A stretch of 40,426 nucleotides of DNA from a virus. The notes beneath the pieces were generated by a model that was given only the letters and a program-made list of their open reading frames with translations, did no database searches and had not been told where the DNA came from. A program made the translations under genes and the position numbers. The stretch is taken from positions 1 through 40,426 of the IMG/VR virus record IMGVR_UViG_3300020057_000009, one strand, 5' to 3'. Position 1 is the stretch's first letter. Each line of letters starts with the position of its first letter. Shown here piece by piece: positions 8,001 to 40,426 of this stretch.

Positions 8001-10374
8001 TAGAGAGTTAGTACCCGCTAGAGCTTCACAATGGCTAGACACCGTACGGTACAACTCGATGCTCTCTAGTCCACTTACTCAAATGGTCAACATTTTTGGT
8101 AACGCACAGGGGGTTCTAGGCGTAGCACCCGTAGAAAAGACTCTTAGAGGCACTATAGACGCTATCGGTGGTGCATTCGGAAAAGAACGCAAATATGCTG
8201 CTGGTGAGGGATTGGCGTATAGCAAGGGTTCTATAACCAACATTCGCAACGCTACTATCAACTTTAAGGACGCATTAACAGGCGGGGGTAAGTATTCCAA
8301 CCCTGACTTTGACGACTACAACATACCACTTGCGACTAAAGGCATAAAGGGTGCAACATATAAGACATTGTCGTTCCCTATGCGTGTGCTTGACGGTATG
8401 GATAAGTTCTTCAGGACAATGGCGAATGGTGGCGAAGAAGCTGCGTTAGACTCACGGACTAAAAAAGGTATCAAATTAGGTGGCAACAAATCAGCATTGA
8501 TAGAGGAAGAATCAGCTTATAGAGTATTCCAGGCTGACTCACATAAACCAGGGCAAGGCATAGCATTAGACGCTATGGACAGTTTCGCAGATATTGTAAT
8601 GAGCGGTAGAAACAGTAAAAACCCAGTTATTTCTACCGTATCTAAGTTCACTGTACCTTTTGTCAGGACAATCAACAATATCAACAAACAGGGAGTGATT
8701 GAATACTCGCCACTCGGCATAATAAATATGAAAGGTAATACAGACAAAGTTACGGCTTTGACTCGTGCAACTATGGGTACGGCAGTCTTTGGACTATCCG
8801 CTATGCTTGTCGGTGCTGGAGATATGACGTGGGCTGAACCGAGAGACGCAGAAGAACGCAACAGATTTAGAGCCGAGGGGAAACAACCCTATTCAGTAAA
8901 AATTGGTGGCAAGTGGGTAGGCTTCTCTAAGCTCCACCCGTCTATATCATTCCCTATGGCAATGGTTTCTGCGTTAGACGATGCTTTCAATAAGGGCGAT
9001 ATTGACCAAAGTTTTATAGATAAGACCATAGAAGCTGTCTCTAAATACGGCAACTTCATGTCTGACCAGTCCTATGCTAAAAGTGTTGGAGATACATTAG
9101 GGGCAATCGGTGGCAACAAAGAAGACATAGCAAGAATGGTGTCTAATAATATTCAGCAGGTCGTACCGTTTAGAGCTTTTACTGGCTGGGTAGCTAGAAT
9201 GACCGATAGCACAGAACGCAAAGTAGACACAACCCAAAACTACTTTGACCAACAAGTACAATCTTTGATGCAACAATACCCAGGACTTAGACAAAAAGCC
9301 CCGACCAGAGACTATCGAGGCGAGCCGATACCTGCTAATAACCCAGGGTTAAACGCTTTCTCACCAGTTAGGGTGACTAATGACAGAGGTGTAAATCCAG
9401 TAGACGCACAGCTAGATTCTATAAAAGAAGCCACTCAGGCCGACCCACTATTGGACAAGAAACAAACCAAAGAGATAGACGGCCAAGTGGCTAAGATTCT
9501 GTCTACTGCTCAAGCTGACTTAATTCAAAGCTCTAACTTCCAAAAACTAAGCGATGCCGACAAGAAGTCTAAGCTCTCTAAGTTGTCAACAGATATACGA
9601 GCTGTCGAAAGACGCAAGTATATGGCAGATAACCAAGTAGGGGAATATGCACAAGACTTTAGCGGGAAAGCATCTAAACTAACCAAAGACCAGAAATCAT
9701 TGATACAGAGTGGTAACATAGATACTTCCAGATACGCAAGTGACGCTGGCGAAATCCCCAAAGGCATGAACAACTATGACGTACAAACTTTAGAGAGATT
9801 CGCTGCCCTAGATGATACCGAAAAGGACGATGTTATCCGTACTGAAAAGGACGCTGAATATAAACTTACTCTTGCTCAGTACGAACGAGACAAAAAACTA
9901 GGTAAAATATCTAAGGTTGAGGACTTAAAGAAGTCTAACGAACTAGCCAAAGCTAAGGTTGGCAAAGACTACGACAAAGAGATTAGGGAGTTCTACTCAC
10001 TTAATAAGGGCGATATTTACGACTACGTTACTAATGAAGATGACGGCAAGGAAGTTGCTGATAAACTCCTAGCCTATGATGACGCTCAGGTCAAAGCAGG
10101 TGTTATTGAGAAGAACAAGTTTAGGGACAAGAACGGCAACGTGAAGTTTGACACAGATAGAAAAGGTGGCAAAAAGGGCAAGGGCAAATCAGTGGCGGGG
10201 GGTTCTCACGATATAGCCAAGTTTATGTCCATGGACGCTGCACAGAGAAAACAGCTAAGGGCGTTGGTCAATTCAGCCAAGGTAACAGGTGGCAAGTCCG
10301 GCAGAGCGAGTGGATCTAAGGTCGCTATGCGTAAACCTAACGTCGCAAGATTAAACGTAAAGAAAGGAAAATAA
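5017..10374 (+). CDS. Giant polyvalent internal/ejection protein with HEIQH metallopeptidase-like domain
   Basis: 1785 aa. Order of parts: N-terminal tag (1-20); disordered basic stretch; Gly/Ala-rich hydrophobic segments near 203-245 and 329-349; a domain at about 450-680 with VLEHPKLYKQYPGMKDVPIEI, HEIQH at 626-630, EGFSRGG and YRNLAGEAEARA, which is the signature of zincin-like domains in phage polyvalent proteins; Lys/Pro-rich linker; helical region; SSPLTQMVNIFGN near 1015; PFVRTINNINK and the RAEGKQPYSVKIGGKWVGF segment typical of large polyvalent-protein domains; basic C-terminus. Such proteins are packaged and ejected with the genome. Peptidase activity on host wall or proteins is inferred. 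Start has GAAAGGAA upstream. Confidence 0.75.
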   Translation: MSFLKKLFDQANPLDGGKSFQNQNPQRAPARTPPPSNNRGSNNAPRPRQGVLDRARDVFDPNTEADKFRRVSQGMPRDYTAQQLQKDAEALKDPKNRSLVDQLLNNLQGGAIETVAKVPGSLIDLKASFDNTVPGRVLDIANPMNYGQNIVEFGKDALTGKPLGTTNEVNNAELQRVGRGANDLVESKVQQSRYGQRETDNKYAAGASRAIGGVGAQVATTIATGGGTVLPSALMGARTFSDAQKRAKEAGLSDDKAFGVGAVQGSVEAALEKVGLDALKFPGGGNLLTKTASRFLTEGTQEGTQQAASNLITNKTYDPSQGLTEGVAESALFGGIAGGVAGTGFDFAGGRGKPTTNLVKDQTPQPTSRLVGQSQAAQPTVADLSTGIRPDNDAQTQFEQAYNAGDFKSALKATEGIQDPSLKGFLQQEIADAKKSSRNRLGLKKLNEDGFVAGPLALDFKKQQKQGRVFDGVDGKPRFEVSDKGAKVKDADLSSGGFLGDVLEHPKLYKQYPGMKDVPIEIDSKLPKGSAALDDRTGTLKISDSFAQESQTVKADVSKISRQQVNTKLKELGYSQKQIDADTKGVPLQEVIKLAFSRREINSLAGLENPGFIKTLTPESKGKLLHEIQHEIQGYEGFSRGGSPKNSTGKAMQDYRNLAGEAEARAVSARKDMTDGARQTKPFYDSLDVKKEDLNIRDGKGMAMSKANPKNKVFADGTIELSKAKAKDSTQATPQAPTVEQSPVDSLPNSSMLEANTPKPSPKAQQVARQLEDAGLKPKPRLQDSLDSKSTKIRANDQETSQRTPRSQRTPVEKVNIQDKTSLPKDTTKKTQVKLNTDRLNMDGGYDAMAKLDKETASTVQKLTNEEVESIAKGAGLDTKTYSIGETKTKIAEQLNVRQDAVRLMNEAEVARKAGDVTKAESLLKEAAAQGRVSRTQGTDLARQLQARRIIANELDTPQQRIFKLFDEAGVNPDVYTKRLADVDFGDSKAVVSAYRELVPARASQWLDTVRYNSMLSSPLTQMVNIFGNAQGVLGVAPVEKTLRGTIDAIGGAFGKERKYAAGEGLAYSKGSITNIRNATINFKDALTGGGKYSNPDFDDYNIPLATKGIKGATYKTLSFPMRVLDGMDKFFRTMANGGEEAALDSRTKKGIKLGGNKSALIEEESAYRVFQADSHKPGQGIALDAMDSFADIVMSGRNSKNPVISTVSKFTVPFVRTINNINKQGVIEYSPLGIINMKGNTDKVTALTRATMGTAVFGLSAMLVGAGDMTWAEPRDAEERNRFRAEGKQPYSVKIGGKWVGFSKLHPSISFPMAMVSALDDAFNKGDIDQSFIDKTIEAVSKYGNFMSDQSYAKSVGDTLGAIGGNKEDIARMVSNNIQQVVPFRAFTGWVARMTDSTERKVDTTQNYFDQQVQSLMQQYPGLRQKAPTRDYRGEPIPANNPGLNAFSPVRVTNDRGVNPVDAQLDSIKEATQADPLLDKKQTKEIDGQVAKILSTAQADLIQSSNFQKLSDADKKSKLSKLSTDIRAVERRKYMADNQVGEYAQDFSGKASKLTKDQKSLIQSGNIDTSRYASDAGEIPKGMNNYDVQTLERFAALDDTEKDDVIRTEKDAEYKLTLAQYERDKKLGKISKVEDLKKSNELAKAKVGKDYDKEIREFYSLNKGDIYDYVTNEDDGKEVADKLLAYDDAQVKAGVIEKNKFRDKNGNVKFDTDRKGGKKGKGKSVAGGSHDIAKFMSMDAAQRKQLRALVNSAKVTGGKSGRASGSKVAMRKPNVARLNVKKGK

Positions 10375-20410: not shown

Positions 20411-20583
20411 GCCAGAAAGTATGGTTAGTGCCTACATACGTGCAGTTAAACCAGTATATTATCAGCCTAGAGGAAGAAGTGAACAAGCTAGACCCCTCGG
20501 CTACAATGTTCGTAAAGTTTGAAATAGCGAAGCTCAAGGGTCTACGAGACTGGATGAGCGACCAAGTAAAGGAGCAGGCATGA
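20407..20583 (+). CDS. Small hypothetical protein, early operon
   Basis: 58 aa from ATG 20407, which follows AAGGGGG. A longer frame from 20341 lacks a ribosome site and would overlap the Cys-rich mini-gene. Helical and charged (LNQYIISLEEEVNKLDPSA, KFEIAKLKGLRDWMSDQVKE). It overlaps the Rad52-like gene by four bases. No family recognised. Confidence 0.55.
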   Translation: MSQKVWLVPTYVQLNQYIISLEEEVNKLDPSATMFVKFEIAKLKGLRDWMSDQVKEQA

Positions 20584-21155
20584 GCAAAGCTATTCAAGAC
20601 ACAATGCTAAAGCAGTTAAAAGACCCGTTCGACTCCAAGTTTGTTAAATGGCGAGTCGGGGCTACCGACCAAGCCAAGACTAAAGGCATCGCATTAGCTT
20701 ACATTGATTCACGAGAAGTGATGAAGCGACTAGATGATGTTTGTGGACTCGGTGGCTGGCAATCTAAACACGTTGCTGTAGACGGTGGATTCGTATGTGA
20801 GCTATCTATCAAGATTGATGACGAATGGATCACAAAGTCTAACGCTGCTGGCAACACCAAGGTAGAGCCAATTAAAGGCGGGGCATCTGATGCCCTCAAG
20901 CGAGCAGCAGCAACCTGGGGTGTCGGACGATACCTCTACTACCTACCAAACGTATGGGTCCCAATAAAAGCCAGGGGCAAGTCCTATGTACTAGCCGAAC
21001 AGCCTGAGTTACCAGCGTGGGCTAAACCAAGCCATACAATCGAACGCTGGGAAGATGTTGCAGAGCTAGAAGCAGCAGACGAATCTGGAGCTGACGAGAT
21101 TGACACAGTAGATGTAGACAAGGTAGCTGACGTAGCAAAGGCCTACAAAAGATGA
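20580..21155 (+). CDS. Rad52/Rad22-type single-strand annealing protein
   Basis: 191 aa. The core matches phage Rad52-like annealing proteins: KWRVGATDQ...IALAYIDSREVMKRLDDVCG, GGWQSKHVAVDGGFVCELSI, then KGGASDALKRAAATWGVGRYLYYLPNVWVP (in pieces). The C-terminus is acidic, as is usual for SSB-interacting tails. It anneals single strands during recombination-based replication or repair. It is coupled by four-base overlaps to the gene before it and to the YqaJ exonuclease after it; the two form the usual annealase-exonuclease pair. AAGGAG precedes the start. Confidence 0.85.
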   Translation: MSKAIQDTMLKQLKDPFDSKFVKWRVGATDQAKTKGIALAYIDSREVMKRLDDVCGLGGWQSKHVAVDGGFVCELSIKIDDEWITKSNAAGNTKVEPIKGGASDALKRAAATWGVGRYLYYLPNVWVPIKARGKSYVLAEQPELPAWAKPSHTIERWEDVAELEAADESGADEIDTVDVDKVADVAKAYKR

Positions 21156-21763
21156 GTGTCCAGGGAAGCCTAGAGTGGCTACAGGATAGAGTGGGCGTGG
21201 CAACAGCATCACGGTTCGCAGACGTAATGACCACGATTAAATCAGGCGAAGCAGCAGCTAGATACAACTACAAGGCTGAGATAGTCGCTGAGAGGCTCAC
21301 AGGGCTACCCACAGCGAGTTTCACGACAGCACCGATGCAATGGGGCATAGACAACGAACCCGAAGCCAGGGCGGTCTACGAAGCTATTAAGGGAGTCAAG
21401 GTTGAAGAGACGGGAATGCTCCAGCACGAAACTATGGAGGCTGGAGCAAGTCCAGACGGATTAGTGGGTGAAGATGGTTGCTTAGAGATTAAGTGTCCGA
21501 ACACCGCAACTCACCTGATGACAATAATATCAGGCAAAGCACCAAAGAAGTACAACGCACAGATGCAAGGGCAAATGTGGATAGCTAACCGCAAATGGTG
21601 CGACTTTGTAAGCTACGATCCCCGGCTCGATAACAAGAACGCAGTGTTTATTGTACGAGTCGAGCGAGACGATGACTTCATTAAGGACTTACAAGACCAG
21701 GTCGAGCTATTCCTAAGAGAAGTTGAAGAGTTAATGTTAAAACTGGAGGCTACAGATGAGTAG
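21152..21763 (+). CDS. YqaJ/lambda-type recombination exonuclease
   Basis: 203 aa. N-terminal GSLEWLQDRVGVATASRFADV (residues 5-25) is the DNA-binding start of YqaJ nucleases. The PD-(D/E)xK centre is visible as E69 (WGIDNEPEARAVYE), D102 (GASPDGLVG) and E112-x-K114 (CLEIKCP), followed by QMQGQMWIA. It degrades one strand of double-stranded ends to feed the annealing protein encoded just upstream. Its end (EATDE) and the following start share a nucleotide block (GAGGCTACAGATGAGT) with two other gene junctions in this region. Confidence 0.9.
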   Translation: MSVQGSLEWLQDRVGVATASRFADVMTTIKSGEAAARYNYKAEIVAERLTGLPTASFTTAPMQWGIDNEPEARAVYEAIKGVKVEETGMLQHETMEAGASPDGLVGEDGCLEIKCPNTATHLMTIISGKAPKKYNAQMQGQMWIANRKWCDFVSYDPRLDNKNAVFIVRVERDDDFIKDLQDQVELFLREVEELMLKLEATDE

Positions 21764-22540: not shown

Positions 22541-22578
22541 AAACTAATATTACAAACGAGGAGGCTACAGATGAGTGA
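22537..22578 (+). pseudogene. 13-codon remnant of a cassette gene
   Basis: MKTNITNEEATDE-stop. Its end (EATDE and the nucleotides around it) equals the ends of the genes at 21152 and 25084, while the body is missing. It starts on the stop of the previous gene and runs into the next start. I read it as the two edges of a deleted small gene. Confidence 0.35.
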
Positions 22579-23044
22579 TAAGACTATAGACGAGCTACGA
22601 AAAGCCTATAAATCTATCGATGACTTCTCCTGGGAAACCTACGTGGGGAAAGTCTACAAAGCTAAACTAAAGGAGAATAAAATGGGTGATAAGACTATAC
22701 GAGAATTAGTAGAGCGGTTAGTTTACTATCCATTTGACAAGTTTTCTGATGAGCGGAACTACAAGACGGAAGATGAAGCCACCGAAGCCATCGAAGCTCG
22801 CATAACAGAAGCAATGCACGAAGCCTGGGGGTCACTACATCAAAACGCAACCTGCTGTGAAGATAAGCACCAGACATTTTTCGGTGCTGTAGTTAGTAGC
22901 CCTCAATGGGAATTGTGGCAAAAAAACCAAAGAAAAAACCCTACTAGAGATTTGTCAGAAGTAGAGGAAACGGGTGTCATGTCAGACGGACACTTTCAGG
23001 AGTTTCTAAAGTTTTGCCTAACCCAACTAAAGGAGAACAAATGA
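22571..23044 (+). CDS. Fusion of two small cassette-family proteins
   Basis: 157 aa with two complete family units in one frame: residues 1-37 begin MSDKTIDELRKAY and end KLKENK; residue 38 starts again with MGDKTIREL, and the protein ends LTQLKENK. At other junctions the sequence is AAGGAGAATAAATGA, giving a stop; here it is AAGGAGAATAAAATGG, so no stop occurs and the units are joined. The internal ATG (22682) keeps its ribosome site, so both fused and separate products are possible. Second unit includes a Cys pair (TCCEDKH). Function unknown. Confidence 0.6.
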   Translation: MSDKTIDELRKAYKSIDDFSWETYVGKVYKAKLKENKMGDKTIRELVERLVYYPFDKFSDERNYKTEDEATEAIEARITEAMHEAWGSLHQNATCCEDKHQTFFGAVVSSPQWELWQKNQRKNPTRDLSEVEETGVMSDGHFQEFLKFCLTQLKENK

Positions 23045-23379
23045 AAACACAACCAATAACAGAATGGGTGCTGCTGAATGAACCTGAGACACGCAACTCA
23101 GACATCGACCTAATAGTAGAGGTATGGAATGCCCAGGGGCTCAACCTTACCAACCAGCAAATTGAGCATCTAAAAACTAGATGTTCTAACCCGGAGAGTA
23201 TACGCCGAATAAGGCAAAAGCTACAGGAGCAGGGCAAGTACCTGCCAAGCGAACAGGTCGAGAACGCCAGATATAAGAAGTTCGTAGCCGTAAAGGGTGG
23301 CATAGGCGTGGCCAACGCTCAGGAAACAGACGAGCTTCTTAACAACAATCGTGCTATCCACGTTGGGCTGGACTATTAG
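23041..23379 (+). CDS. Hypothetical conserved phage protein
   Basis: 112 aa from ATG 23041, with AAGGAG upstream and overlapping the previous stop. The pattern PESIRRIRQKLQEQGKYLPSEQVENARYKKF (in pieces) is an Arg-rich helix pair as found in small phage DNA-binding-like proteins. An N-terminal region (TEWVLLNEPETRNSDIDLIVEVWNAQGL, in pieces) is helical. No firm family; a DNA-binding role is a guess. Confidence 0.55.
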   Translation: MKTQPITEWVLLNEPETRNSDIDLIVEVWNAQGLNLTNQQIEHLKTRCSNPESIRRIRQKLQEQGKYLPSEQVENARYKKFVAVKGGIGVANAQETDELLNNNRAIHVGLDY

Positions 23380-23418
23380 TAGTAAAGAATAATTAAATAA
23401 TCAAGGAAGGTAGATAAT

Positions 23419-24144
23419 ATGCAAACAACAACTAATTACGGCAAGTTCAAGACAATTCAAGGCAACCGGGTCGTAAAGACCAGCCATGTAAATAACTTAG
23501 CTAACGCAATCGAAAAGAAAAACTTACTAAAAGTGTTCCCAGTTATAGTAAACGAGAACATGGAAGTTATAGACGGCCAGCACAGGCTATTGGCTGCTGC
23601 AAAACTTGGGGTCAAGGTTCCCTATGAGCAGATAGATGGCTTGAGAATAGAGGACGTAATGACAATCAACACATCATCAAAGGGGTGGACAATGATTGAC
23701 TATGTAAAGGCATACCAGCAACTAGGTCATCCAGACTACCGAGAACTAGAAGATTTCGCCAAAAAATATTCAATCTCGGTTAGCATATCGGGACTGTTGC
23801 TATCGGGGGCTAGTAATTTTGGAGGAGGAGGCAAAACAGCTCATCGTATTAAGAACGGCACATTCACAATAAACAGCCGAGGTCGTGCAACTAAAGTGGC
23901 CGAGCTGTTGAGCGAGCTAACACCATTATGTGAGTTCACCCCACAGCAAGACAGGAGCCTAGCCGAAGCCGTGTTCGCACTATTCAACATAGACGCATTC
24001 GACCCAGAGCGTCTTGTATCTAAGATGCGTAAACACTACTTAAAACTTCAGAAGCGAGCAGATAGTCGGTACTACATTATCCACATGGAGGAATTGTACA
24101 ACCACCATGCCCAGGACAAAGTAATTCTATACAGAGGACAATAA
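23419..24144 (+). CDS. ParB-like nuclease-domain protein
   Basis: 241 aa. The ParB/sulfiredoxin-like core is at residues 15-75: VKTSHVNNLANAIEKKN, FPVIVNENMEVIDGQHR (I51-R56) and LLAAAKLGVKVPYEQID. The C-terminal 150 residues are helical and include FGGGGKTAHRIKNGTF and ALFNIDAFDPERLVSKM. Phage proteins of this type bind DNA and may act as nucleases or regulators rather than as partition proteins; there is no ParA. Own ribosome site (AAGGAAGG) after a 39-base gap. Confidence 0.8.
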   Translation: MQTTTNYGKFKTIQGNRVVKTSHVNNLANAIEKKNLLKVFPVIVNENMEVIDGQHRLLAAAKLGVKVPYEQIDGLRIEDVMTINTSSKGWTMIDYVKAYQQLGHPDYRELEDFAKKYSISVSISGLLLSGASNFGGGGKTAHRIKNGTFTINSRGRATKVAELLSELTPLCEFTPQQDRSLAEAVFALFNIDAFDPERLVSKMRKHYLKLQKRADSRYYIIHMEELYNHHAQDKVILYRGQ

Positions 24145-24193
24145 GTGATCCGCTACACACGAAAAACTAAAAGCATGAAGGACGTATTGAAAT

Positions 24194-24355
24194 ATGAAAC
24201 AATCCCTGAGAACAAATCCAGACGAATCGCTATACCAGACGCTGATAAAGGACAAGCTATTCCTAGCGATCATTGGCATAGACGTGCTGGTAATAATATC
24301 AATCGTTCACTTAGATCAAGTCGTAAGGCTTGTAAGCTGGGCGTTAAGAAAATGA
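24194..24355 (+). CDS. Small membrane protein
   Basis: 53 aa (MKQSLRTNPDESLYQTLIKD...). One transmembrane helix around 23-41 (LFLAIIGIDVLVIISIVHL). AAGGA lies upstream. The stop overlaps the next start as ATGA. A different frame (GTG 24145) stays open through both this gene and the next, but its product is an unlikely basic sequence here. Confidence 0.5.
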   Translation: MKQSLRTNPDESLYQTLIKDKLFLAIIGIDVLVIISIVHLDQVVRLVSWALRK

Positions 24356-24513
24356 AAGACAATACCATGTTAATAGGAGTAAGTATATTTTTAGTAAGTA
24401 TCTGGGCAAGTGGCTTCATGGCACACGCAGGAATGAGGTTTGAGAGCCTTTTAACGCTAGTAGTAGGATTCATCTTTCTAGTAGTGAGTATTCTGATTGC
24501 GAGTAAAAAGTAA
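24352..24513 (+). CDS. Small membrane protein, two transmembrane segments
   Basis: 53 aa (MKDNTMLIGVSIFLVSIWAS...). Two hydrophobic helices (residues 5-23 and 30-50) joined by a short Met/Arg turn, ending SKK. Coupled by overlap to its neighbours. Holin-like size, but placed in the early region; function unknown. A longer version from GTG 24145 (122 aa) is possible. Confidence 0.55.
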   Translation: MKDNTMLIGVSIFLVSIWASGFMAHAGMRFESLLTLVVGFIFLVVSILIASKK

Positions 24514-24707
24514 TGTCCGGCACAATAGCTGGCGGCAAGTCAGCAGCAAAGACCAACAAAAAGAACGACCCTGACTTTTACAAGAAGCTTGGTCGCCTCG
24601 GAGGCAAAGCCCACAACAGGGGTGGCTTCACAGATCGTGAGCTGGCCAGGGAAGCCGGGCGCAAGGGCGGGCGGAAAAGTCGCCGTGGCAAGGCTGTGGA
24701 CAAGTAG
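24513..24707 (+). CDS. KGG-repeat (stress-induced) small basic protein
   Basis: 64 aa with repeated GGK/GGR-type units: GGKSAAKTNKKNDPDFYKKLG, LGGKAHNRGGF, EAGRKGGRKSRRGK. This matches the KGG/con-10 group of small basic proteins, frequent in some bacteria of the candidate phyla and in their phages. Probably DNA- or RNA-binding; the exact job is unknown. The last codons overlap the upstream half of the second early promoter. Confidence 0.7.
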   Translation: MSGTIAGGKSAAKTNKKNDPDFYKKLGRLGGKAHNRGGFTDRELAREAGRKGGRKSRRGKAVDK

Positions 24708-24747
24708 GCAAGTTTAGCTTGCATGAAACTAAGCACAGGCGTATACT
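24695..24747 (+). promoter_or_regulatory. Early promoter, copy 2
   Basis: TTGCAT (24719-24724), 17-bp spacer ending CTAAGCACAGGCG, TATACT (24742-24747), followed by AGTAAAC as in copy 1. Upstream TGTGGACAAGTAGGCA parallels TGTGGATAAGTAAGCA at 20245. It drives the small-gene cassettes. Confidence 0.75.
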
Positions 24748-24776
24748 AGAATAGTAAACTAAAAAAAGGATGCGGC

Positions 24777-24875
24777 ATGAATGAGAAAATAGAATACTAC
24801 GGGCTAGGGATAGCAACTGGCATACTAATCTTTGCGTTGATCCTGGGCTACTTCATACAAAGGGGTACACTATGA
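24777..24875 (+). CDS. Tiny single-span membrane protein
   Basis: 32 aa (MNEKIEYYGLGIATGILIFA...). Residues 9-27 form one transmembrane helix; ends IQRGTL. AAAGGATGCGG provides a ribosome site. Overlaps the next start (ATGA). First gene after promoter copy 2. Confidence 0.5.
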   Translation: MNEKIEYYGLGIATGILIFALILGYFIQRGTL

Positions 24876-25087
24876 CCCCCAAACCCCAAGCTAATAAGAC
24901 TATAGCCAAGATGATTAAAGGAAAGCGACATGCAATAAAAATGTATAGCTTCGACATCTGGGGTAGCAGTGCTTCAAGCAATATCCAAAAGATAGAAAAA
25001 CTGAGAGTTGAAATATCTAATCTAAAAGAGTATGGCAGAGAATATCCTACCAGGTGGCAGAAAATTAAAAAGATAGGCAAGCGATGA
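24872..25087 (+). CDS. Cassette-family protein (MTPKPQANKTI start)
   Basis: 71 aa. The start block MTPKPQANKTI is shared with genes at 26111 and (nearly) 26404, down to the nucleotides. The body (KMIKGKRHAIKMYSFDIWG, QKIEKLRVEISNLKEY) is basic and helical, unlike the acidic members. No C-terminal LKENK block; ends KKIGKR. Function unknown. Confidence 0.55.
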   Translation: MTPKPQANKTIAKMIKGKRHAIKMYSFDIWGSSASSNIQKIEKLRVEISNLKEYGREYPTRWQKIKKIGKR

Positions 25088-25401
25088 CCACTAAGACTAT
25101 AGATGAGATACTACTTGAGCTGGAGTCTCACTTTGCGATACCGTCAATAACTGCACCAAAAGCACACGACCAAGCCACCAAAGCTATCGAAGCCCTCATA
25201 GCAGAACAGGTCGTAGCCGTACAGAACGAATGGAACGCAGCTATTGATAACTGTCGTGAAGAACAGAAACAAGCTGTAGCAGAAGCAAGGATAGATACAG
25301 CCGAAAGGTGCTATAAAGTGGCGTTTGATGCCGAACGTGGCGATGCGTTGGACTGTTTACGGGATGAAATCGCCAAACTAAAGGAGGCTACAGATGAGTG
25401 A
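25084..25401 (+). CDS. Cassette-family protein
   Basis: 105 aa. Start block MTTKTIDEILLELESH; middle block AEARIDTAERCYK; end DEIAKLKEATDE. Long helical, acidic. The junctions at both ends use the family's repeated nucleotides (AAGACTATAGATGAG at the start; GGAGGCTACAGATGAGTGAT at the end). Function unknown. Confidence 0.6.
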   Translation: MTTKTIDEILLELESHFAIPSITAPKAHDQATKAIEALIAEQVVAVQNEWNAAIDNCREEQKQAVAEARIDTAERCYKVAFDAERGDALDCLRDEIAKLKEATDE

Positions 25402-25666
25402 TAAGACTATAGATGACCAGATATTTGCGATAGAAGATTATGTTGGTGGGAACATTGAGGGCATAAGTAGAGTAGATCGCATGGAGTTCACGGTATTCTT
25501 ACGCCGGACACTTAATGAAGTAGACGCAGAAGCAAGGATAGATGAGCTAGAAAACGCAACAGACAAAGTAGACTGGCGTGATAGCGACGCTACAATTTCA
25601 ATAAAAGCACTTAAAACATACCAGAGAGTACAAAACCGCCTAGCCCAACTAAAGGAGAATAAATGA
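25394..25666 (+). CDS. Cassette-family protein
   Basis: 90 aa. Start block MSDKTIDDQIFAIEDY, middle AEARIDELENAT, end NRLAQLKENK. All three family blocks are present, with an acidic unique part between them (VGGNIEGISRVDRMEFTVF). Overlaps both neighbours. Function unknown. Confidence 0.6.
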   Translation: MSDKTIDDQIFAIEDYVGGNIEGISRVDRMEFTVFLRRTLNEVDAEARIDELENATDKVDWRDSDATISIKALKTYQRVQNRLAQLKENK

Positions 25667-25884
25667 TGAGTGATTACAAGATAGACAAGAACGTGCCAAT
25701 CCCTGACAACGGACGGCTCATACTTCCTCTACGGGAAATGCAGGTTGGTGATAGTATTGAGTTCCCAAAAAACAAACGTCCCAACGTTGCTAATATGGTT
25801 AATTTTTTAAGCAGAATAGAAAACTTGAAGTTTACCATTAGGAAGACTGGTGATGAAACATGCCGAGTATGGAGACTAAAATAA
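25663..25884 (+). CDS. Conserved small phage protein (DUF7303-like)
   Basis: 73 aa. The pattern KIDKNVPIPDNGR...LPLREMQVGDSIEFP...FTIRKTGDETCRVWRLK is a widespread type of small phage protein with unknown function, sometimes next to DNA-binding proteins. It sits among cassette genes but lacks their blocks. ATG 25663 follows AAGGAGAATAA; a second ATG follows directly. Confidence 0.65.
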   Translation: MMSDYKIDKNVPIPDNGRLILPLREMQVGDSIEFPKNKRPNVANMVNFLSRIENLKFTIRKTGDETCRVWRLK

Positions 25885-26114
25885 TGACCACTAAGACTAT
25901 AAGCGACATAATCACTAAACTGAGAGCAGGTAGAGACCCCGATACAGGAGAGCTTCATATAACTGAAGCCGAAGCTGTTGAAGCCATAGAAGCCCGTGAA
26001 GCAGAAGCAAGGATAGACCAAACTGAGCTATTACAAAGAGCGGAAGATAAGTTTGGCAAGGTAGACTGGGAAGCCGCAATTTATGAACTAAAAGACCGAA
26101 AGAGGTTCGCATGA
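25884..26114 (+). CDS. Cassette-family protein
   Basis: 76 aa from ATG 25884, overlapping the stop of the gene before it. Start block MTTKTISDIITKLRAG, middle EAEARIDQTELLQ; ends ELKDRKRFA without the KENK block. Acidic helical. Function unknown. Confidence 0.6.
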   Translation: MTTKTISDIITKLRAGRDPDTGELHITEAEAVEAIEAREAEARIDQTELLQRAEDKFGKVDWEAAIYELKDRKRFA

Positions 26115-26404
26115 CCCCCAAACCCCAAGCTAATAAGACTATAGATGGGCTACCAAAAGTATGGTCATGGGAAGATTTCAACAATATAGACGGAGTGAGT
26201 GGGATGGACACAAGACGAGCAGGGTTCTTACTGTTTGACTTTATAAATATGTTTTACATTGTCAATTTTCAGATTATTCAGAGTAGCGGAGATGGTCGCA
26301 ATGAACGCATTACTATTGTATATGTAGCACCCCACAAATATAAGGATGGCGAAGTAGAGGAAAAATGGTATGAATATATTAAAGCATGGAAAGGAACTCA
26401 CTGA
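26111..26404 (+). CDS. Cassette-family protein with distinct body
   Basis: 97 aa. Start block MTPKPQANKTI, then a globular-looking part (WSWEDFNNIDGVSGMD, AGFLLFDFINMFYIVNFQII) and a beta strand (NERITIVYVAPHKY). Hydrophobic aromatic content is higher than in other members. It shows that the same start block can be joined to unrelated bodies. Coupled to both neighbours by ATGA overlaps. Confidence 0.55.
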   Translation: MTPKPQANKTIDGLPKVWSWEDFNNIDGVSGMDTRRAGFLLFDFINMFYIVNFQIIQSSGDGRNERITIVYVAPHKYKDGEVEEKWYEYIKAWKGTH

Positions 26405-27093
26405 TGACCCCCAAACCCCAAACCACTAAGACTATAAGCGAGGTGCTAGACATTTTGATTGAATTGGCAGACGAGCATTTTCCTAAAGGTATATCTAAAG
26501 AGAGGGGGGAAGCTATGGTTATGGTAGCTTTAGCAATACCTAGACTAGAAGCCCACATAGCAGAAGCAAGAGCAGACGAACGCCAAGCTATGCTAGATGC
26601 TTTGCCTGAGAAGCAGAAGTTTCCTACGGCTAGCGAGTGGGATGAACTGGGCGAGCGAGATGCAGAAGTTATAACAGACATTGCCGTTGGCTTCAACCAA
26701 GCCATAGACCTAATGGAAGCAGCTATTAAACTAAGGGGAGAAGCTATGAATTGTGTATTTTGTCAAAAAATTGAAGAAGGTAGTGTTGGCTATGTCACGG
26801 AAAACGTCGTATCGTTTGAGCCACTAAACCCAGTTACAGAAGGTCATCTACTTTTTGTGCCAGTCAAGCACGTTGAAGATTTTACAGAAGACCCTGAGAC
26901 ATCTAGTGAAGTCATTAAAGCACTGGCAAGTGTTTCTAGTGGGTATACAGACGTAAACCTTATAACATCAAAAGGTGAACACGCCACCCAAACAATCAAG
27001 CACCTACATTTCCATGTTGTGCCTAGAGAAGAAGAAGATGGGTTGTACCTACCTTGGACACCTAAACCAAACGGAGGTAGCGATGAGCACTAA
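26404..27093 (+). CDS. Cassette-family protein fused to a HIT-family hydrolase
   Basis: 229 aa from ATG 26404. Residues 1-113 are a cassette unit (start TPKPQTTKTISEVLDIL, middle AEARADERQA, end AAIKLRGEA). Residues 115-229 are a HIT domain: MNCVFCQKIEEGSVGYVTE, EGHLLFVPVKHVEDF and the histidine triad H200-L-H202-F-H204-V-V. HIT proteins cleave or transfer nucleoside monophosphates (for example Ap4A-type substrates). The ATG at 26746 keeps GGGGAG in front, so the HIT part may also be made alone. A HIT enzyme is rare in a 40-kb phage. Confidence 0.75.
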   Translation: MTPKPQTTKTISEVLDILIELADEHFPKGISKERGEAMVMVALAIPRLEAHIAEARADERQAMLDALPEKQKFPTASEWDELGERDAEVITDIAVGFNQAIDLMEAAIKLRGEAMNCVFCQKIEEGSVGYVTENVVSFEPLNPVTEGHLLFVPVKHVEDFTEDPETSSEVIKALASVSSGYTDVNLITSKGEHATQTIKHLHFHVVPREEEDGLYLPWTPKPNGGSDEH

Positions 27094-27319
27094 GACTATA
27101 GATGAGCTGAAAACTTGGTGGCATAAAACTAACGGTACTGGCACGGACGCATGTTCGAAATGCACCCCTAACCATGTTTGCAGTTGGCATACCGAACGAT
27201 TAGCCGACATTGAAACCCTCATAACAGAAGCAAGGATAGATGAGGTAGAAAACCACCCTAAGAAAAGTGATAACCGCTGGCGAGATGACCGCCTAGCCCA
27301 ACTAAAGGAGAATAAATGA
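27083..27319 (+). CDS. Cassette-family protein with Cys cluster
   Basis: 78 aa from ATG 27083 (GGAGG upstream). Start MSTKTIDELKTWW, a centre with C-x2-C and Cys/His (TDACSKCTPNHVCSWHTE) that may bind zinc, middle TEARIDEVEN, end DRLAQLKENK. All family blocks present. The CSKCTP...CSWHTERLADIE part resembles small phage zinc-binding modules. Function unknown. Confidence 0.6.
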   Translation: MSTKTIDELKTWWHKTNGTGTDACSKCTPNHVCSWHTERLADIETLITEARIDEVENHPKKSDNRWRDDRLAQLKENK

Positions 27320-27567
27320 AAACACTAACCAAAGCGGAACAAAGAATCGAGGCACGAAAAGCCTACGACGCTATCAAAGACCCTGCATTCAAAGCCTACC
27401 AAGCTATTAACGAACCTGCCTACAAAGCCTACGACGCTATCACTGACCCTGCCCTCAAAGCCTACAGAGCCAAACTAGTAGAGATTGACGCACGACCACC
27501 AGAAGAAATCATCACTGTTGACGGTAGGAAATATAAACTAATGGAGGTGAGTGATGACCACAGATAA
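27316..27567 (+). CDS. Tandem-repeat protein (KAYDAIxDPA units)
   Basis: 83 aa. Residues 14-50 hold about four repeats of an 11-residue unit (KAYDAIKDPAF, KAYQAINEPAY, KAYDAITDPAL, KAYRAK), a helical repeat. The tail (EEIITVDGRKYKLMEVSDD) matches that of a paralogue at 34028, which has fewer repeats. Follows the KENK block of the gene upstream. Function unknown. Confidence 0.6.
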   Translation: MKTLTKAEQRIEARKAYDAIKDPAFKAYQAINEPAYKAYDAITDPALKAYRAKLVEIDARPPEEIITVDGRKYKLMEVSDDHR

Positions 27568-28870: not shown

Positions 28871-30685
28871 GTGATTATTTGTGGCAATAGCCTATTGGAA
28901 CTCAAAAGCCTAGAAGCCAACTCGGTAGATAGTGTCGTCACTGACCCTCCGTATGGTTTAAAATTTATGTCAAAGGCTTGGGATTACGATGTACCAACCA
29001 AAGAACTGTGGTCAGAGGTACTCAGAGTATTAAAACCAGGTGGTTACCTACTAGCATTCGCAGGTACTCGCACTCAACACCGCATGGCTGTAAACATCGA
29101 GGACGCTGGCTTTGAGATACGAGATATGATTGCGTGGATTTATGGCAGCGGATTCCCGAAATCTCATAACATAGGTAAGGCTGTTGATAAGATACAGGGG
29201 AATAAGAGGGAATATCTAGGCAAAAACCCAGACGCTAGACCTAACAGTGAGCACACCAATAAGATACTCAGTGGGGCAGTCTCACACCCAGACATCACCA
29301 AAGGCTCATCACCCTACGAAGGCTGGGGTACTGCTCTAAAACCTGCGGTTGAACCTGTTGGAGTATATACCAAACCCTTGCAAGCAAAGCATATTATTGC
29401 TATACTTATAGATGAACTATGGAAACTTTTACCTGCGAACGATGCAACAACAACTTTAAGAGGCGAGTGTACCCATCTCGACCAATTATTAGGTTCTGTT
29501 CAAGAGAATGCCAGAATGAGCGTCTTGGAGAACATAGAAAGTGTGAAACTTGCGGAACAAGCAAATACTTCAGTAAGTCAGCACTTGAACGAGAAGGACA
29601 ACAGCAAGGACGTTTCTGCTCAAGAACCTGTAAGGGTCAGTGGCAACAACGACAAACAGGTGATGCCAACCCTAACTGGCGAGGCGGAAGGTGTAACTTT
29701 GACGGCTATATCTATATCCGTACTAACGGAAGGTATATCGGAGAACACCGTCTTATTGTGGAGAAACATATCGGAAAAAGTCTTACAAGAGATGAACACG
29801 TCAACCACATTAACGGCATCAAAACTGATAACAGAATTGAAAACCTTGAGGTTGTTACTGCTTCAGAACACTTTAGGAAACACTGGGAGTTCCACCTCGA
29901 CACTACCAACCGTTAGACCCGCACTAGAACCTATAACAGTAGCTCGTAAACCTTTCAAAGGAAATGTCGCCCAGAACGTACTAGAGTGGGGTACAGGTGG
30001 TATCAATATAGATGGTTCGAGGGTAGGAAGCGAAGAAAGATTTAGTCAACCAGCAACAGCAGGGAAAGATACATTTAACTGTAGTCCTGGAAGCGGTAAA
30101 GAATATAAAGGCAAAGAAGTTACTGGCCGCTTCCCTGCAAATCTAATACACGACGGTAGTGATGAGGTAGTAGGGTTGTTTCCTGATACTAAGAGTGGGG
30201 GTGGAGATAGGAACAGTAAAGGTAAAACAGATTTATTCACTGGCTTTGGCGATACTGGAGTGGCAAGACCCTTTGAAGCTAACTCTGGCTCTGCTGCCCG
30301 CTTCTTCTACTGTGCCAAAGCTGGAAAAGCAGAACGCAATAAAGGACTAGAGGGGTTTGAGCAAGTACACCCAGGGCAAGTAACAGGTCGCAAGGTTGGT
30401 AGTGCAGGTGCGAAGAACGGTGGCTATGCAGGTATGACAGAAACACCCAGAGCTAATATTCATCCGACTGTCAAGCCTGTAAAGCTAATGCAATACCTAG
30501 TCAAGCTAGTCACACCAGTAGGAGGGACATGCCTCGACCCATTTTCTGGAAGTGGCACTACCGGCATAGCCTGTAAGCTAGAAGGCTTTGACTATATTGG
30601 AATTGAATTAGACGAAGAATATGTAAAGCTATCTGAGGCAAGGATTGAGGCGTGGGAGTCGGATAAGCAGGCTACGCTACTGTGA
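28871..30685 (+). CDS. Beta-class DNA methyltransferase with HNH-encoding insertion
   Basis: 604 aa, GTG start. Motif IV DPPY is at residues 25-28; GTRTQHRMAVNIEDAGFEIRD and WIYGSGFPKSHNIGKAVDK follow, and motif I DPFSGSGTTG lies at 556-565, the beta-class order for N4-cytosine or N6-adenine methylation. Residues about 165-350 are an insertion: LKPAVEPV before it and VRPALEPI after it are alike. In another frame the insertion encodes a complete HNH endonuclease, yet this frame also stays open. The enzyme may protect phage DNA from restriction; specificity unknown. If the insert is kept in the protein, it is a large surface loop. Confidence 0.8.
   Translation: MIICGNSLLELKSLEANSVDSVVTDPPYGLKFMSKAWDYDVPTKELWSEVLRVLKPGGYLLAFAGTRTQHRMAVNIEDAGFEIRDMIAWIYGSGFPKSHNIGKAVDKIQGNKREYLGKNPDARPNSEHTNKILSGAVSHPDITKGSSPYEGWGTALKPAVEPVGVYTKPLQAKHIIAILIDELWKLLPANDATTTLRGECTHLDQLLGSVQENARMSVLENIESVKLAEQANTSVSQHLNEKDNSKDVSAQEPVRVSGNNDKQVMPTLTGEAEGVTLTAISISVLTEGISENTVLLWRNISEKVLQEMNTSTTLTASKLITELKTLRLLLLQNTLGNTGSSTSTLPTVRPALEPITVARKPFKGNVAQNVLEWGTGGINIDGSRVGSEERFSQPATAGKDTFNCSPGSGKEYKGKEVTGRFPANLIHDGSDEVVGLFPDTKSGGGDRNSKGKTDLFTGFGDTGVARPFEANSGSAARFFYCAKAGKAERNKGLEGFEQVHPGQVTGRKVGSAGAKNGGYAGMTETPRANIHPTVKPVKLMQYLVKLVTPVGGTCLDPFSGSGTTGIACKLEGFDYIGIELDEEYVKLSEARIEAWESDKQATLL
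29419..29916 (+). CDS. HNH endonuclease overprinted inside the methyltransferase gene
   Basis: 165 aa, frame +1 relative to nothing in common with the surrounding methyltransferase frame. Two zinc knuckles: C6/C9/C27/C31 and C42/C45/C67/C71. Then GDANPNWRGGR and the HNH core YIGEHRLIVEKHIGKSL...H127-V-N-H130-INGIKTDNRIENLEV, the usual homing-type HNH pattern. The stop lies where the methyltransferase sequence resumes. No good ribosome site precedes the ATG, so expression may be low. Probably a mobile element that settled in the gene. Confidence 0.8.
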   Translation: METFTCERCNNNFKRRVYPSRPIIRFCSRECQNERLGEHRKCETCGTSKYFSKSALEREGQQQGRFCSRTCKGQWQQRQTGDANPNWRGGRCNFDGYIYIRTNGRYIGEHRLIVEKHIGKSLTRDEHVNHINGIKTDNRIENLEVVTASEHFRKHWEFHLDTTNR

Positions 30686-31775: not shown

Positions 31776-32774
31776 ATGAGCATAGACTACAGGGCATTCA
31801 TAGAAGACAACTTCACTATCAACACTACTGATGGTAGGACAGTACCGTTCGTTTTTAACGACATTCAAAGCTATTATTACGACTTACTTATCAAAGATTA
31901 CGGTGATGACCTGTCAGGAGTCAGAGAGAACATCCTAAAGAGCAGACGTTTCGGCTTCAGCTCAATCATCGACGCTATGTTCGCAACCGACTTTATACTA
32001 TCTGAGGTAGGGGCTATACCTCTGACCAACTCAGACGTTTACTCATACAAAGACCAAGACACTAAATCACTATTTACTAGAGTTAATCAGTTCGTGGACT
32101 CATGGCTGCTTAAAGACCAGGGGTACAGCTACCTTAACCTAGAGGATCGTAAGCATGTGCCAAGACTTCGCAAAGCATTCCTAAGAACAGATGTATCAGG
32201 CACTATGATAGCCGGACGTAATGGTGCTGAGTATCACTGCTTGACGGCTGGGGCTAGAGTTTCGGGGCGTGGCGGTACTAAGCAAAACATTCACTGGAGT
32301 GAGGTGGCATTCTACGGCAACACTGATATACTTAACGCTAGAGACTTAGTGACAGGTGCAGAAGAACAGGTATCAGGTGGTATCGGTAAGATATTCAGAG
32401 AGACTACTGGCAACGTAGCTGATGACTTCTTTAGCTCAGAGTATCACCTAGGCAAGGACGGCAAGTCAGACTTTAAGAGTAGGTTTCTAGCCTGGTATCT
32501 GTTCGGAGCGTATAAGACCGAAGCCCCGGCTGGTTGGGTAGCACCAGAATACTACCAAGGGCTTGAGGGTGTAACCAAAGACCAATGCTTCTGGCACTTT
32601 AAGAAGACTAGAGAGCTGACCGACAAGAGGCGGATGCGTGAATATCCGAGTTCGGACTCGGAAGCCTTCCTACTGGGAGGAGAACCATTCTTTGATGCAG
32701 ACTCCCTAATGCACTACAGTAACCGTATAAAGAAGCCGATTAAAGAGGGGTTATATGTTCTATCTCTATCGTAA
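31776..32774 (+). CDS. terL: Terminase large subunit, ATPase part (split)
   Basis: 332 aa with the packaging ATPase: Q-motif area FNDIQ (27-31), Walker A variant LKSRRFGFSS (54-63), and Walker B with catalytic Glu in NIHWSEVAFYG (E176). It ends KKPIKEGLYVLSLS-stop, where a full-length enzyme would enter its nuclease domain. That domain follows in the next frame, overlapping by 20 bases. Removing one G from the GGGG run at about 32747-32750 would join both parts smoothly (PIKEGYMFYLYRKLMENEF). Split gene, programmed shift and sequencing error all remain open. Confidence 0.85.
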   Translation: MSIDYRAFIEDNFTINTTDGRTVPFVFNDIQSYYYDLLIKDYGDDLSGVRENILKSRRFGFSSIIDAMFATDFILSEVGAIPLTNSDVYSYKDQDTKSLFTRVNQFVDSWLLKDQGYSYLNLEDRKHVPRLRKAFLRTDVSGTMIAGRNGAEYHCLTAGARVSGRGGTKQNIHWSEVAFYGNTDILNARDLVTGAEEQVSGGIGKIFRETTGNVADDFFSSEYHLGKDGKSDFKSRFLAWYLFGAYKTEAPAGWVAPEYYQGLEGVTKDQCFWHFKKTRELTDKRRMREYPSSDSEAFLLGGEPFFDADSLMHYSNRIKKPIKEGLYVLSLS

Positions 32775-33384
32775 GCTAATGGAAAACGAGTTCTTCGTAG
32801 TCGGAGGCGATTGTGCTCAAGGCGGTGTAGACTCTAACCTTATCCAGTTCATGTCCAAGACCAATACCGATATACCGCTGAAACTAAAGATGCCGGGAGT
32901 CGCTGCCAACATGACACCATACCTGCACCAGGCACTCGAATGGATATACGACCAGACCAAAGTCAAGCCAGTAGTAGCCTTGGAGCGTAACAATGGCGGT
33001 GCTTCTGAGATGCACAACCTTATGATGATGAACAAGAACGGCAAGTACCGCATATATCAGATGAAGAACCGAGGCACAGAGGACGGCCAGGACAGGTCTA
33101 AGAACTTAGGTTGGAACACAACTAGCGAATCAAGACCTCGTATGTTAGGCGACTGGAAAGTAGCTTACGATGGACAGATGATAAGACTGTATGATGAGGA
33201 CACCCTATCTGAGCACAAGACATTCATTGTGGCTAAGAACGGCAAGCCCGAAGCAGCACCCAATACCCACGATGATGAGGTGATTAGCTGTGCGATAGCC
33301 TGGCAGTTGTATATTACCGAGAACCCCATAACCAAACCAGTAAAGAATAGGCCGAAGCCTAAGAGAGTAAGGCTCCACATATGA
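32755..33384 (+). CDS. terL: Terminase large subunit, nuclease part (split)
   Basis: 209 aa. Metal-binding residues of the terminase nuclease are seen: D19 (VVGGDCAQGG), the Glu of VVALERNNGG, and the D of NTHDDEVISCAIAW near 172-176. C-terminus is basic (KPVKNRPKPKRVRLHI). The ATG at 32755 has AGAGGGG five bases upstream, so separate translation by coupling is possible. Its frame is +1 to the ATPase part. Confidence 0.85.
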   Translation: MFYLYRKLMENEFFVVGGDCAQGGVDSNLIQFMSKTNTDIPLKLKMPGVAANMTPYLHQALEWIYDQTKVKPVVALERNNGGASEMHNLMMMNKNGKYRIYQMKNRGTEDGQDRSKNLGWNTTSESRPRMLGDWKVAYDGQMIRLYDEDTLSEHKTFIVAKNGKPEAAPNTHDDEVISCAIAWQLYITENPITKPVKNRPKPKRVRLHI

Positions 33385-33530
33385 CCAACCACATAACAAT
33401 ACCGATAATAGAGGCGGTAGAATCTCAACATCATTGTAAGCAGTGTCCAGTCCCAAACCCAAACCTACAAGATGAGCAGAACAAAGCAATGTATGACAGG
33501 CATGTTGATAAACTAAAGGAGAATAAATGA
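33381..33530 (+). CDS. Small protein with cassette end block
   Basis: 49 aa. Contains C-x2-C with nearby His (SQHHCKQCPVPNPN), a possible zinc site, and ends DKLKENK, the end block of the cassette family. Starts on the stop of the terminase nuclease gene (ATGA). Confidence 0.5.
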   Translation: MTNHITIPIIEAVESQHHCKQCPVPNPNLQDEQNKAMYDRHVDKLKENK

Positions 33531-33733
33531 TTAGTAAAGCAGACGAAGATAAATTAGAAGAACTGACGAGCGAGTACCCTGTATTACGGCAAATTATAAA
33601 AGCCCTCGTAACGGAAGCAAGGATAGATGAACGTAATAAGTGCCAAGAGGTAATCAACCATTTAGCCAACGCAAGAATGGACTTAATGAAATACTCTATG
33701 CGATATACTGAACCAAAGGAGAATAAGCAATGA
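33527..33733 (+). CDS. Cassette-family protein, second cluster
   Basis: 68 aa. Start MISKADEDKLEELTSEY, middle block TEARIDERNKCQE, end YTEPKENKQ. It has the middle and end blocks of the family found at 22-27 kb, so this second cluster is related. Overlaps both neighbours. Confidence 0.55.
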   Translation: MISKADEDKLEELTSEYPVLRQIIKALVTEARIDERNKCQEVINHLANARMDLMKYSMRYTEPKENKQ

Positions 33734-33875: not shown

Positions 33876-34031
33876 ATGAATGACAAGCACGTTGATAGCT
33901 TGAGCATTAAACTGCCGTTGGCTACTGAGTATAGGATAATACTAGACATGGCAGTTATGATGATGGAATCAGATTTAAACTTCCTGAAAGACAAACTAAG
34001 AGAGTTAGACGAACTAAAGGAGAATAAATGA
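33876..34031 (+). CDS. Small protein with cassette end block
   Basis: 51 aa. Met-rich helix (LDMAVMMMESDLNFLKDKL) ending LDELKENK, the family's end block, with nucleotides GAACTAAAGGAGAATAAATGA. GGAGGAAC before the start. Function unknown. Confidence 0.5.
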   Translation: MNDKHVDSLSIKLPLATEYRIILDMAVMMMESDLNFLKDKLRELDELKENK

Positions 34032-34237
34032 AAAAACCAACCGAACTGCAACAAATAAAGGAGGCACGAAAGATCTACGATGCCGTTCTAGACTCCGCAT
34101 GGGAAGCCTTCAACGCTATCCATGACCCTGCACAAGAAGCCTACGCAGCTAAACTAGAAGAAATCGAAGCCCAAACAGGGGTGATCATATCCGTTACCGG
34201 TAAGAAATATAAGTTGGTGGAGGTGAGTGATGAGTAA
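34028..34237 (+). CDS. Tandem-repeat protein, paralogue of the gene at 27316
   Basis: 69 aa. Repeats KIYDAVLDSAW, EAFNAIHDPAQ, EAYAAK correspond to the KAYDAIxDPA units of the gene at 27316, but there are fewer of them. The tail GVIISVTGKKYKLVEVSDE matches too, including the junction GGAGGTGAGTGATGA. Both follow a KENK block. Function unknown. Confidence 0.6.
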   Translation: MKKPTELQQIKEARKIYDAVLDSAWEAFNAIHDPAQEAYAAKLEEIEAQTGVIISVTGKKYKLVEVSDE

Positions 34238-40299: not shown

Positions 40300-40426
40300 A
40301 ATTGAAATCCGCCTATACCGTCACGACAGAGTAGTCAATGACCAGAACTCTGCGACAACATAGGCTCTCTCAAATAACAAGGAAAGTAAAATAACATGCC
40401 AAAATTCATAAGACAAGGGGACAACA
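40300..40426. repeat. Terminal direct repeat, right copy
   Basis: Identical to bases 1-127. The last 31 bases repeat the start of the gene at 97, which is complete only at the left end. See the left copy for interpretation. Confidence 0.95.

Follow-up and report, generated by a model that had tools for sequence, protein, structure and literature searches.

In type I restriction systems, the target domains of HsdS are shuffled, and conserved segments flank variable ones and recombine in frame. The locus described here, part of a 40,426-nucleotide viral sequence that we call the window, resembles HsdS in its in-frame recombination and in having variable segments flanked by conserved ones. Unlike HsdS, it comprises about ten tiny genes, and its segments take in gene ends and ribosome sites.

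The SAS and ESAS repeats of Cluster K mycobacteriophages (PMC3203893) and Cluster EF Microbacterium phages (PMC7302621) offer a second comparison. As at our locus, short ribosome-site DNA is repeated before genes of different families, with a consensus that varies by phage group. The present repeats also cover the ribosome site just upstream of the start codon, with AAAGGAG directly before the ATG. However, SAS and ESAS are noncoding and lie upstream of the start codon only, whereas here the start and middle blocks are coding, keep a fixed frame, take in the first codons and an intragenic segment, and coincide with swap points.

At the protein level, Smug et al. 2023 described domain mosaicism in which unrelated phage proteins share shuffled fragments; by the sequence-based definition used there, the fragment in common spans 50 aa or more and no more than half of each protein (PMC10684548). 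Otherwise unrelated proteins share fragments here as well, but the blocks measure 10-14 aa and are near-identical in DNA. The sections we draw on of a study of Rad52-like recombinases (Redbeta, RecT, Erf) report relaxed homologous recombination, activity of Erf with an exonuclease, and recombination of short or diverged homologies by Erf-type enzymes in E. coli phages (PMC3945230). The mosaics described there, like ours, arise at such homologies; in contrast to our locus, those sections describe no dedicated repeated coding blocks.

Block structure of the small-gene array

We propose that the array is a series of tiny phage genes that are coupled in translation and have a common scaffold. A gene would have as many as three short blocks, all in frame. 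The start block follows the ATG, the middle block reads ALITEARIDE, and the end block combines the last residues with the Shine-Dalgarno (SD) sequence for the gene downstream, stop and start codons usually overlapping in a 4-nt ATGA. The original prediction had listed at least eight such genes, and an ORF is present at each of its starts, from 22571 to 27083; the longest listed ORFs for 25884, 26404, and 27083 begin further upstream.

The sharing of words noted at both protein and DNA level is borne out by counts in the window. The start word AAGACTATA occurs nine times, always on the plus strand and inside array gene start blocks, against an expectation of 0.64 (none of 100 shuffles reached nine). 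The middle word GAAGCAAGGATAGA has five exact copies, at 25282, 25529, 26004, 27227, and 33614, and one further match with two mismatches, with 0.5 expected at up to two mismatches. For the end word CTAAAGGAGAATAA, with 0.57 expected, five exact copies (22667, 25649, 27302, 33513, and 34014) and two with one mismatch (23027 and 33713) were found; a single two-mismatch match is unrelated to the array. The DNA repeat units exceed these words, reaching 33 nt for the middle block and up to 42 nt for the start block. Among 15-mers common to different window genes, the ratio of in-frame to out-of-frame pairs is 14:2, where chance gives 1:2; for 15-mers shared elsewhere it is 52:11.

All array genes lie on the plus strand. 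Two ORFs, 25394..25666 (MSDKTIDD, AEARIDE, RLAQLKENK) and 27083..27319 (MSTKTIDE, TLITEARIDE, RLAQLKENK), carry all three blocks; the product of the former matches the family HMM with an E-value of 9e-21 and belongs to the seed of that profile. Elsewhere the three-block plan is incomplete. The ORF 25884..26114 (MTTKTI, AEARID) ends in a degenerate ELKDRK, with no clear end block, while the ORFs 24872..25087 (MTPKPQANKTI) and 26111..26404 (MTPKPQANKTIDG) have a start block only, followed by an unrelated body. The predicted LKENK ending is found in several genes, but the ORF 25084..25401 (MTTKTIDE; KAIEALIAE and AEARID) ends in LKEATDE instead, together with the next SD.

Two ORFs are fusions. 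The ORF 22571..23044 is a double cassette joined in frame, in which a start block and first body run to an internal LKENK followed by a second start, MGDKTI; its second half holds a degenerate middle block (ITEA) and the end block LTQLKENK. It contains AAGACTATA at 22580 and 22691 and end words at 22667 and 23027, and its frames are joined by one extra A (AATAAAATG). In the 26404 ORF, a cassette (26404..26745; start MTPKPQTTKTISE, middle IAEARADE) is in frame with a HIT-domain gene (26746..27093; Pfam HIT 4.5e-12, phrog_3962 1e-27). Both fusion points show one extra base relative to the usual end block.

Contrary to the original prediction, the genes are not all adjacent: ParB-like, KGG-like, and other genes occupy 23041-24707, and 25663-25884 has no clear block. 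The reported recurrence at 33.4-34.0 kb holds for the middle and end blocks but not for the KTI start block, which is absent there. This second site comprises the small genes 33381..33530 (ending VDKLKENK) and 33876..34031 (ending LDELKENK), both identified by ORF and end-word scan, and 33527..33733 (middle ALVTEARIDE, end EPKENK).

Block DNA and swap points in related viruses

Near-identical block DNA is also present in about ten other viral contigs, one of them a 104-kb virus in which no further DNA similarity was detected. Codon identity between phages at matching block residues is 94, 100, 82, and 86%, against 34-41% expected and 29-53% in structural and replication genes. Distant relatives carry similar arrays with other block sequences, such as the start words KPNTKQD/KPNTPK in L024. 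Mosaics also occur within single contigs: in the L021 array the second half after ARIDELE is shared, and in L017 the gene at 3946 has its start in common with 4615 and its end in common with 4298.

A single window protein used as a query for relatives gave no matches, and the complete alignment of 12 sequences, being too divergent, could not serve as one. Array and portal had no DNA or protein match among isolate phages and plasmids. Scanning for QANKTIDE returned mostly unrelated chance matches. The only start-block match in GTDB genomes, in Competibacter, is antisense to another gene and due to chance, indicating that the start block occurs in no other host genome at that stringency.

The original prediction held that the words serve as recombination junctions in a fast-changing locus, and proposed comparing bodies between close relatives. 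That comparison supports it: bodies and gene halves differ while the phages themselves are near-identical. G016 and G020 share 99.95% identity over 17.6 kb, yet differ at the array locus, and G023 carries a third allele. Within one cassette gene, the sequence common to G016 and G020 is limited to the part that opens with the middle block's first base and closes at the gene junction. G016 and G023 agree from inside the start block onward, and G023 and G020 in the leader up to the start block and again from the middle block. Three genes are absent from G016, and these sit between two copies of the junction GAGGTAGTGATGAG.

All eight scored switch edges in this trio lie either at a gene junction or within a start or middle block. 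As blocks cover 13-27% of the sequence, the product is 7e-7 if the edges are independent, although the switch events are few and not all independent, and block bounds were set after the relatives were seen. A strict test using short core words ±5 nt placed one of eight edges and was not significant, because the switches sit where the longer blocks, of 33-42 nt, have their 5' edge.

A separate pair, G018 and G019, is identical over 126 nt that begin at the middle block and run to the following gene's ATG, corresponding to a common second half of about 40 aa after unrelated first halves. G012 and G019 have a first body in common but not the second, and G012 and G026 share one gene from the SD/ATG on.

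The blocks are thus conserved in identity, held in a fixed frame, and used as swap points in near-identical phages. Because block DNA is near-identical across unrelated bodies and different phages, it would provide homology for recombination. We consider it likely that the shared in-frame blocks, carrying the next ribosome site, act as homology for swapping gene halves and whole genes. An exchange within a block would join a new first half, second half, or neighboring gene in the right frame with a working ribosome site. The swapping of pieces at shared stretches between sister viruses suggests that recombination assembles new small proteins. This would make visible a mechanism for creating small phage genes, in which bodies are swapped between standard coding blocks that preserve the reading frame and the signals for translation. 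It also becomes possible to test, within a small region, whether phage mosaicism is guided by conserved boundary sequences, a long-standing question.

Possible alternatives: common fold, translation signals, and assembly artifacts

Alternatively, the products could form a single paralogous three-helix family, with the blocks as conserved parts of the fold, the bodies as fast-evolving loops, and recombination between paralogs as incidental. We regard this as quite possible, if short of probable. With a full-length family profile, members that have all three segments turn up in many contigs, the portal relatives L059 and L021 among them. In AlphaFold models, one of them of the 25394 product, the start block falls at helix one, the middle block halfway along a long helix two, and the end block at the close of helix three. 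The models, of low confidence (pLDDT 70-74), are compatible with a common fold, and such a fold alone would conserve the blocks; fold and PDB searches gave no significant structural match. None of the 24 family members matches PHROGs or NCBIfam, and a single Pfam match among them was spurious. Codon-level conservation of the blocks lies far above what the proteins need, lone blocks occur on unrelated bodies (24872, 26111, G012b, and G017e), and break points also fall at gene junctions. One fold-forming domain had been named in advance as the result that would count against the predicted mosaics. Since the blocks resemble segments of one three-helix family, a paralog family is part of the answer, but the lone blocks and junction break points indicate that one fold does not account for everything.

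It is also conceivable, though we think it unlikely, that the role of the start and end blocks lies in translation and not in recombination, an SD and unstructured, A/C-rich initial codons having been copied as signals to many small genes. The end blocks do place AAAGGAG at SD distance with the ATGA overlap, such overlaps also occur at junctions outside the array, and similar RBS-containing repeats are found in Cluster K mycobacteriophages (PMC3203893) and Microbacterium phages (PMC7302621). However, this reading leaves the intragenic middle block, and the swap points there, unexplained.

A stronger version of recombination at the blocks, in which selection keeps them as recombination sites of a dedicated gene-assembly system with lineage-specific dialects, joining halves and whole genes in frame, appears improbable. 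An assembly or strain-mixing artifact, in which different genomes were joined at repeated words, is very improbable: all contigs are metagenomic (including G016/G020/G023 and G018/G019) and within the blocks 20-40 nt are repeated exactly, but the within-contig mosaics (L017, L021, and the 22571 double cassette) can arise without joining strains, bodies are shared over 126-241 nt and so reach well beyond the repeats, and several different samples yield similar signatures.

Recombination genes, array products, and host

Under the preferred reading, recombination at the blocks, exchange may possibly be performed by the phage's own Erf-type annealing protein and exonuclease. The window encodes such a pair at 20580-21763, just upstream of the array, with activity predicted for both as in Rad52-like (Erf) mosaicism. 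The candidate driver is an Erf-like single-strand annealing protein (20580..21155, plus strand; phrog_1097, E 1e-52) that falls below the Pfam ERF threshold. Its partner is a YqaJ/RecE-like exonuclease (21152..21763, plus strand; phrog_149 2e-47, PF09588 6.5e-31) whose gene ends in codons (LEATDE) also present in the 25084 end block, with 17 nt in common. Among the relatives, G023 encodes Erf, G019 a RecE-like exonuclease, and G020 an exonuclease; no annealing protein was found in G020, so that a requirement for Erf is a candidate only.

The host is probably a tiny parasitic Saccharibacterium, and the array products may be accessory host-interaction proteins. To our knowledge, conflicts between Saccharibacteria and their phages have been little studied, and the blocks would offer a concrete means of locating fast-changing accessory genes in uncultured phages, including theirs. 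The anti-defense role suggested in the original prediction is not supported. In PADLOC, no array protein convincingly matched a defense family except the HIT fusion, which weakly matched ThsC (2e-6), a defense rather than an anti-defense model. A weak PADLOC ankyrin match looked spurious. The HIT gene has an internal ATG with an SD in CTAAGGGGAGAAGCTATG, for which the G018/G019 counterpart is CTAAAGGAGAAGCTATGA.

Blocks and fusions within the array

All the small-gene open reading frames (ORFs) listed in the original prediction exist in the window, and the start (KTI), middle (AEARID) and end (LKENK) words are strongly enriched, with nearly all copies in the array (about 22571-27319) or at a second site (33.4-34.0 kb). 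Each word lies within a longer DNA unit, of up to 42 nt for the start (D11), 33 nt for the middle (D2) and about 25 nt for the end (D4). The end unit contains AAAGGAG, and most copies finish in an ATGA that overlaps the following gene by 4 nt. Several genes carry only some of the three blocks. ORF 22571 is a fusion of two cassettes, joined through LKENK/MGDKTI, while ORF 26404 joins a cassette to a HIT-domain gene. The latter gene (26746-27093) weakly matches a Thoeris-associated ThsC profile (2e-6). A pair of related genes (27316-27567 and 34028-34237), one at each of the two end-block sites, contains internal repeats of 33 nt that encode AKAYDAI.DPA.

Exchange at the blocks

We compared arrays among metagenomic viral contigs carrying the same blocks. 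Over 17.6 kb, G016 and G020 have 99.95% identity, and G023 represents a third allele. The G016 array has an RNA-ligase gene (phrog_14301, 1.6e-63) followed by MTPKPQANKTIDEALDEI...; G023 differs in its leader and has the same KTIDEALDEI... body, and G020 has the G023 leader but a different first body. The second half of the cassette gene is common to all three. The limits of the shared stretches, at either end, lie at gene junctions, in the start block or at the first base of the middle block, and three genes missing from G016 are located between junction repeats GAGGTAGTGATGAG. In other contigs, G018 and G019 share 126 exactly identical nt that run from the middle block as far as the following gene's ATG, and have different first halves; G012 and G019 share a first body and have different second halves; and G012 and G026 have a gene in common that matches from its SD and ATG on. 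Near-empty cassettes occur (G012, MSNTPKPQANRLNQLIKEKL), and one G023 gene (1736-1936) begins with the middle block.

All eight scored switch edges (8/8, two from G018/G019) fall in blocks, which make up 13-27% of the sequence, the events being not fully independent. The same test limited to short core words failed because switching takes place at the outer limit of the longer blocks, which is where it should fall if the block is common to both parents.

The RNA-ligase gene of G016 (L126:446-997) is not at that place in G020, and L017, a locus with a portal relative, has two copies (2590-3171, 8233-8787). G020 also encodes a 212-aa protein consisting almost wholly of GYGDGNG repeats (L128:369-1007), likely a length-variable locus.

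Shared DNA, probable protein scaffold and proposed mechanism

A protein-level search with MTPKPQANKTI returned three viral contigs, each with the identical 27-nt string CCCAAACCCCAAGCTAATAAGACTATA; one, the 104-kb virus G017, has its own array. A second block search raised the total to about ten different viruses. Between phages, the codon also agrees at 82-100% of block positions with identical residues (34-41% expected from codon usage), whereas control genes from these phages (portal, other virion proteins, terminase, Erf and exonuclease) agree at 29-53% (31-40% expected). This excess indicates that the blocks are shared as DNA, through recent exchange, DNA-level constraint or both.

The counter-case to the original prediction, that the blocks are one conserved fold-forming domain, is partly borne out. 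AlphaFold models show three helices (pLDDT 70-74, pTM 0.40-0.48), with the blocks at the start of the first, the middle of the second and the end of the third; thus, the blocks probably double as structural segments of a scaffold family. Conservation as structural segments, however, leaves unexplained their codon-level identity, the single blocks on unrelated bodies and the breaks at gene junctions. No family member matched PHROGs or NCBIfam, and a fold search with the models gave no significant match. The single Pfam match was judged spurious. Searching with a family profile brought up distant members both in other viruses and in portal relatives. Accessory or host-takeover roles are plausible, given the location, size and turnover of these genes.

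For the exchange itself, the blocks, their frame, their DNA identity and the switch points are directly observed. Most likely, homologous exchange inside the blocks replaces gene halves or entire genes while preserving the frame, every incoming piece bringing a working ribosome site. We infer an enzyme of the Erf/exonuclease type. The genes for Erf, a single-strand annealing protein (20580..21155), and its YqaJ/RecE-like exonuclease partner (21152..21763) lie just upstream of the array. Erf is present in G023, and exonucleases in G019 and G020. The Pfam model detected no Erf in G020 and also missed that of the window; a tblastn search with the Erf of the window hit G023 alone, not G020. With diverged sequences, phage D3 Erf/Exo recombined as well as Red (PMC3945230).

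Portal relatives use the same block design with different words. In L024, six adjacent genes with unrelated bodies start with KPNTKQD, VTKQDTGK or KPNTPK; in L021, two genes share the second half after ARIDELE; and L017 gene 3946 has the start of gene 4615 joined to the end of gene 4298. Between different genes of these contigs, 52 shared 15-mers are in frame and 11 out of frame (chance 1:2), a count to which protein repeats and ordinary paralogues also contribute.

Earlier work has described repeated start-associated sequences (PMC3203893, PMC7302621), mosaicism of proteins (PMC10684548) and relaxed recombination (PMC3945230). In open-access full-text literature, we found no description of in-gene blocks combining swap points, translation signals and lineage-specific wording.

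Genome and host

The 40,426-nt window, a virus record from IMG/VR, is probably a complete genome, since it carries a 127-nt exact direct terminal repeat (1-127 and 40300-40426). Its proteins include ones similar to T7-type internal virion proteins. Related portal proteins occur at 73 viral loci; among 50,697 phage records, the window portal has no relative.

The lysozyme-like gene of G017 is 56% identical to that of TM7 phage DolZOral124_53_65, which also has, as the window does, a KGG-repeat gene and an exonuclease. Saccharibacteria are the likely host of G017, and may also host the other viruses.

The presumed large terminase subunit (31776-33384), named from position and its second half, occupies two overlapping frames (31776-32774 and 32755-33384), which could reflect a frameshift, an error or a programmed shift. 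An insert of some 230 aa interrupts a DNA methyltransferase ORF (28871-30685). The same stretch contains an HNH endonuclease ORF (29419-29916), read from the same strand in a different frame, and the arrangement looks like a homing-endonuclease insertion.
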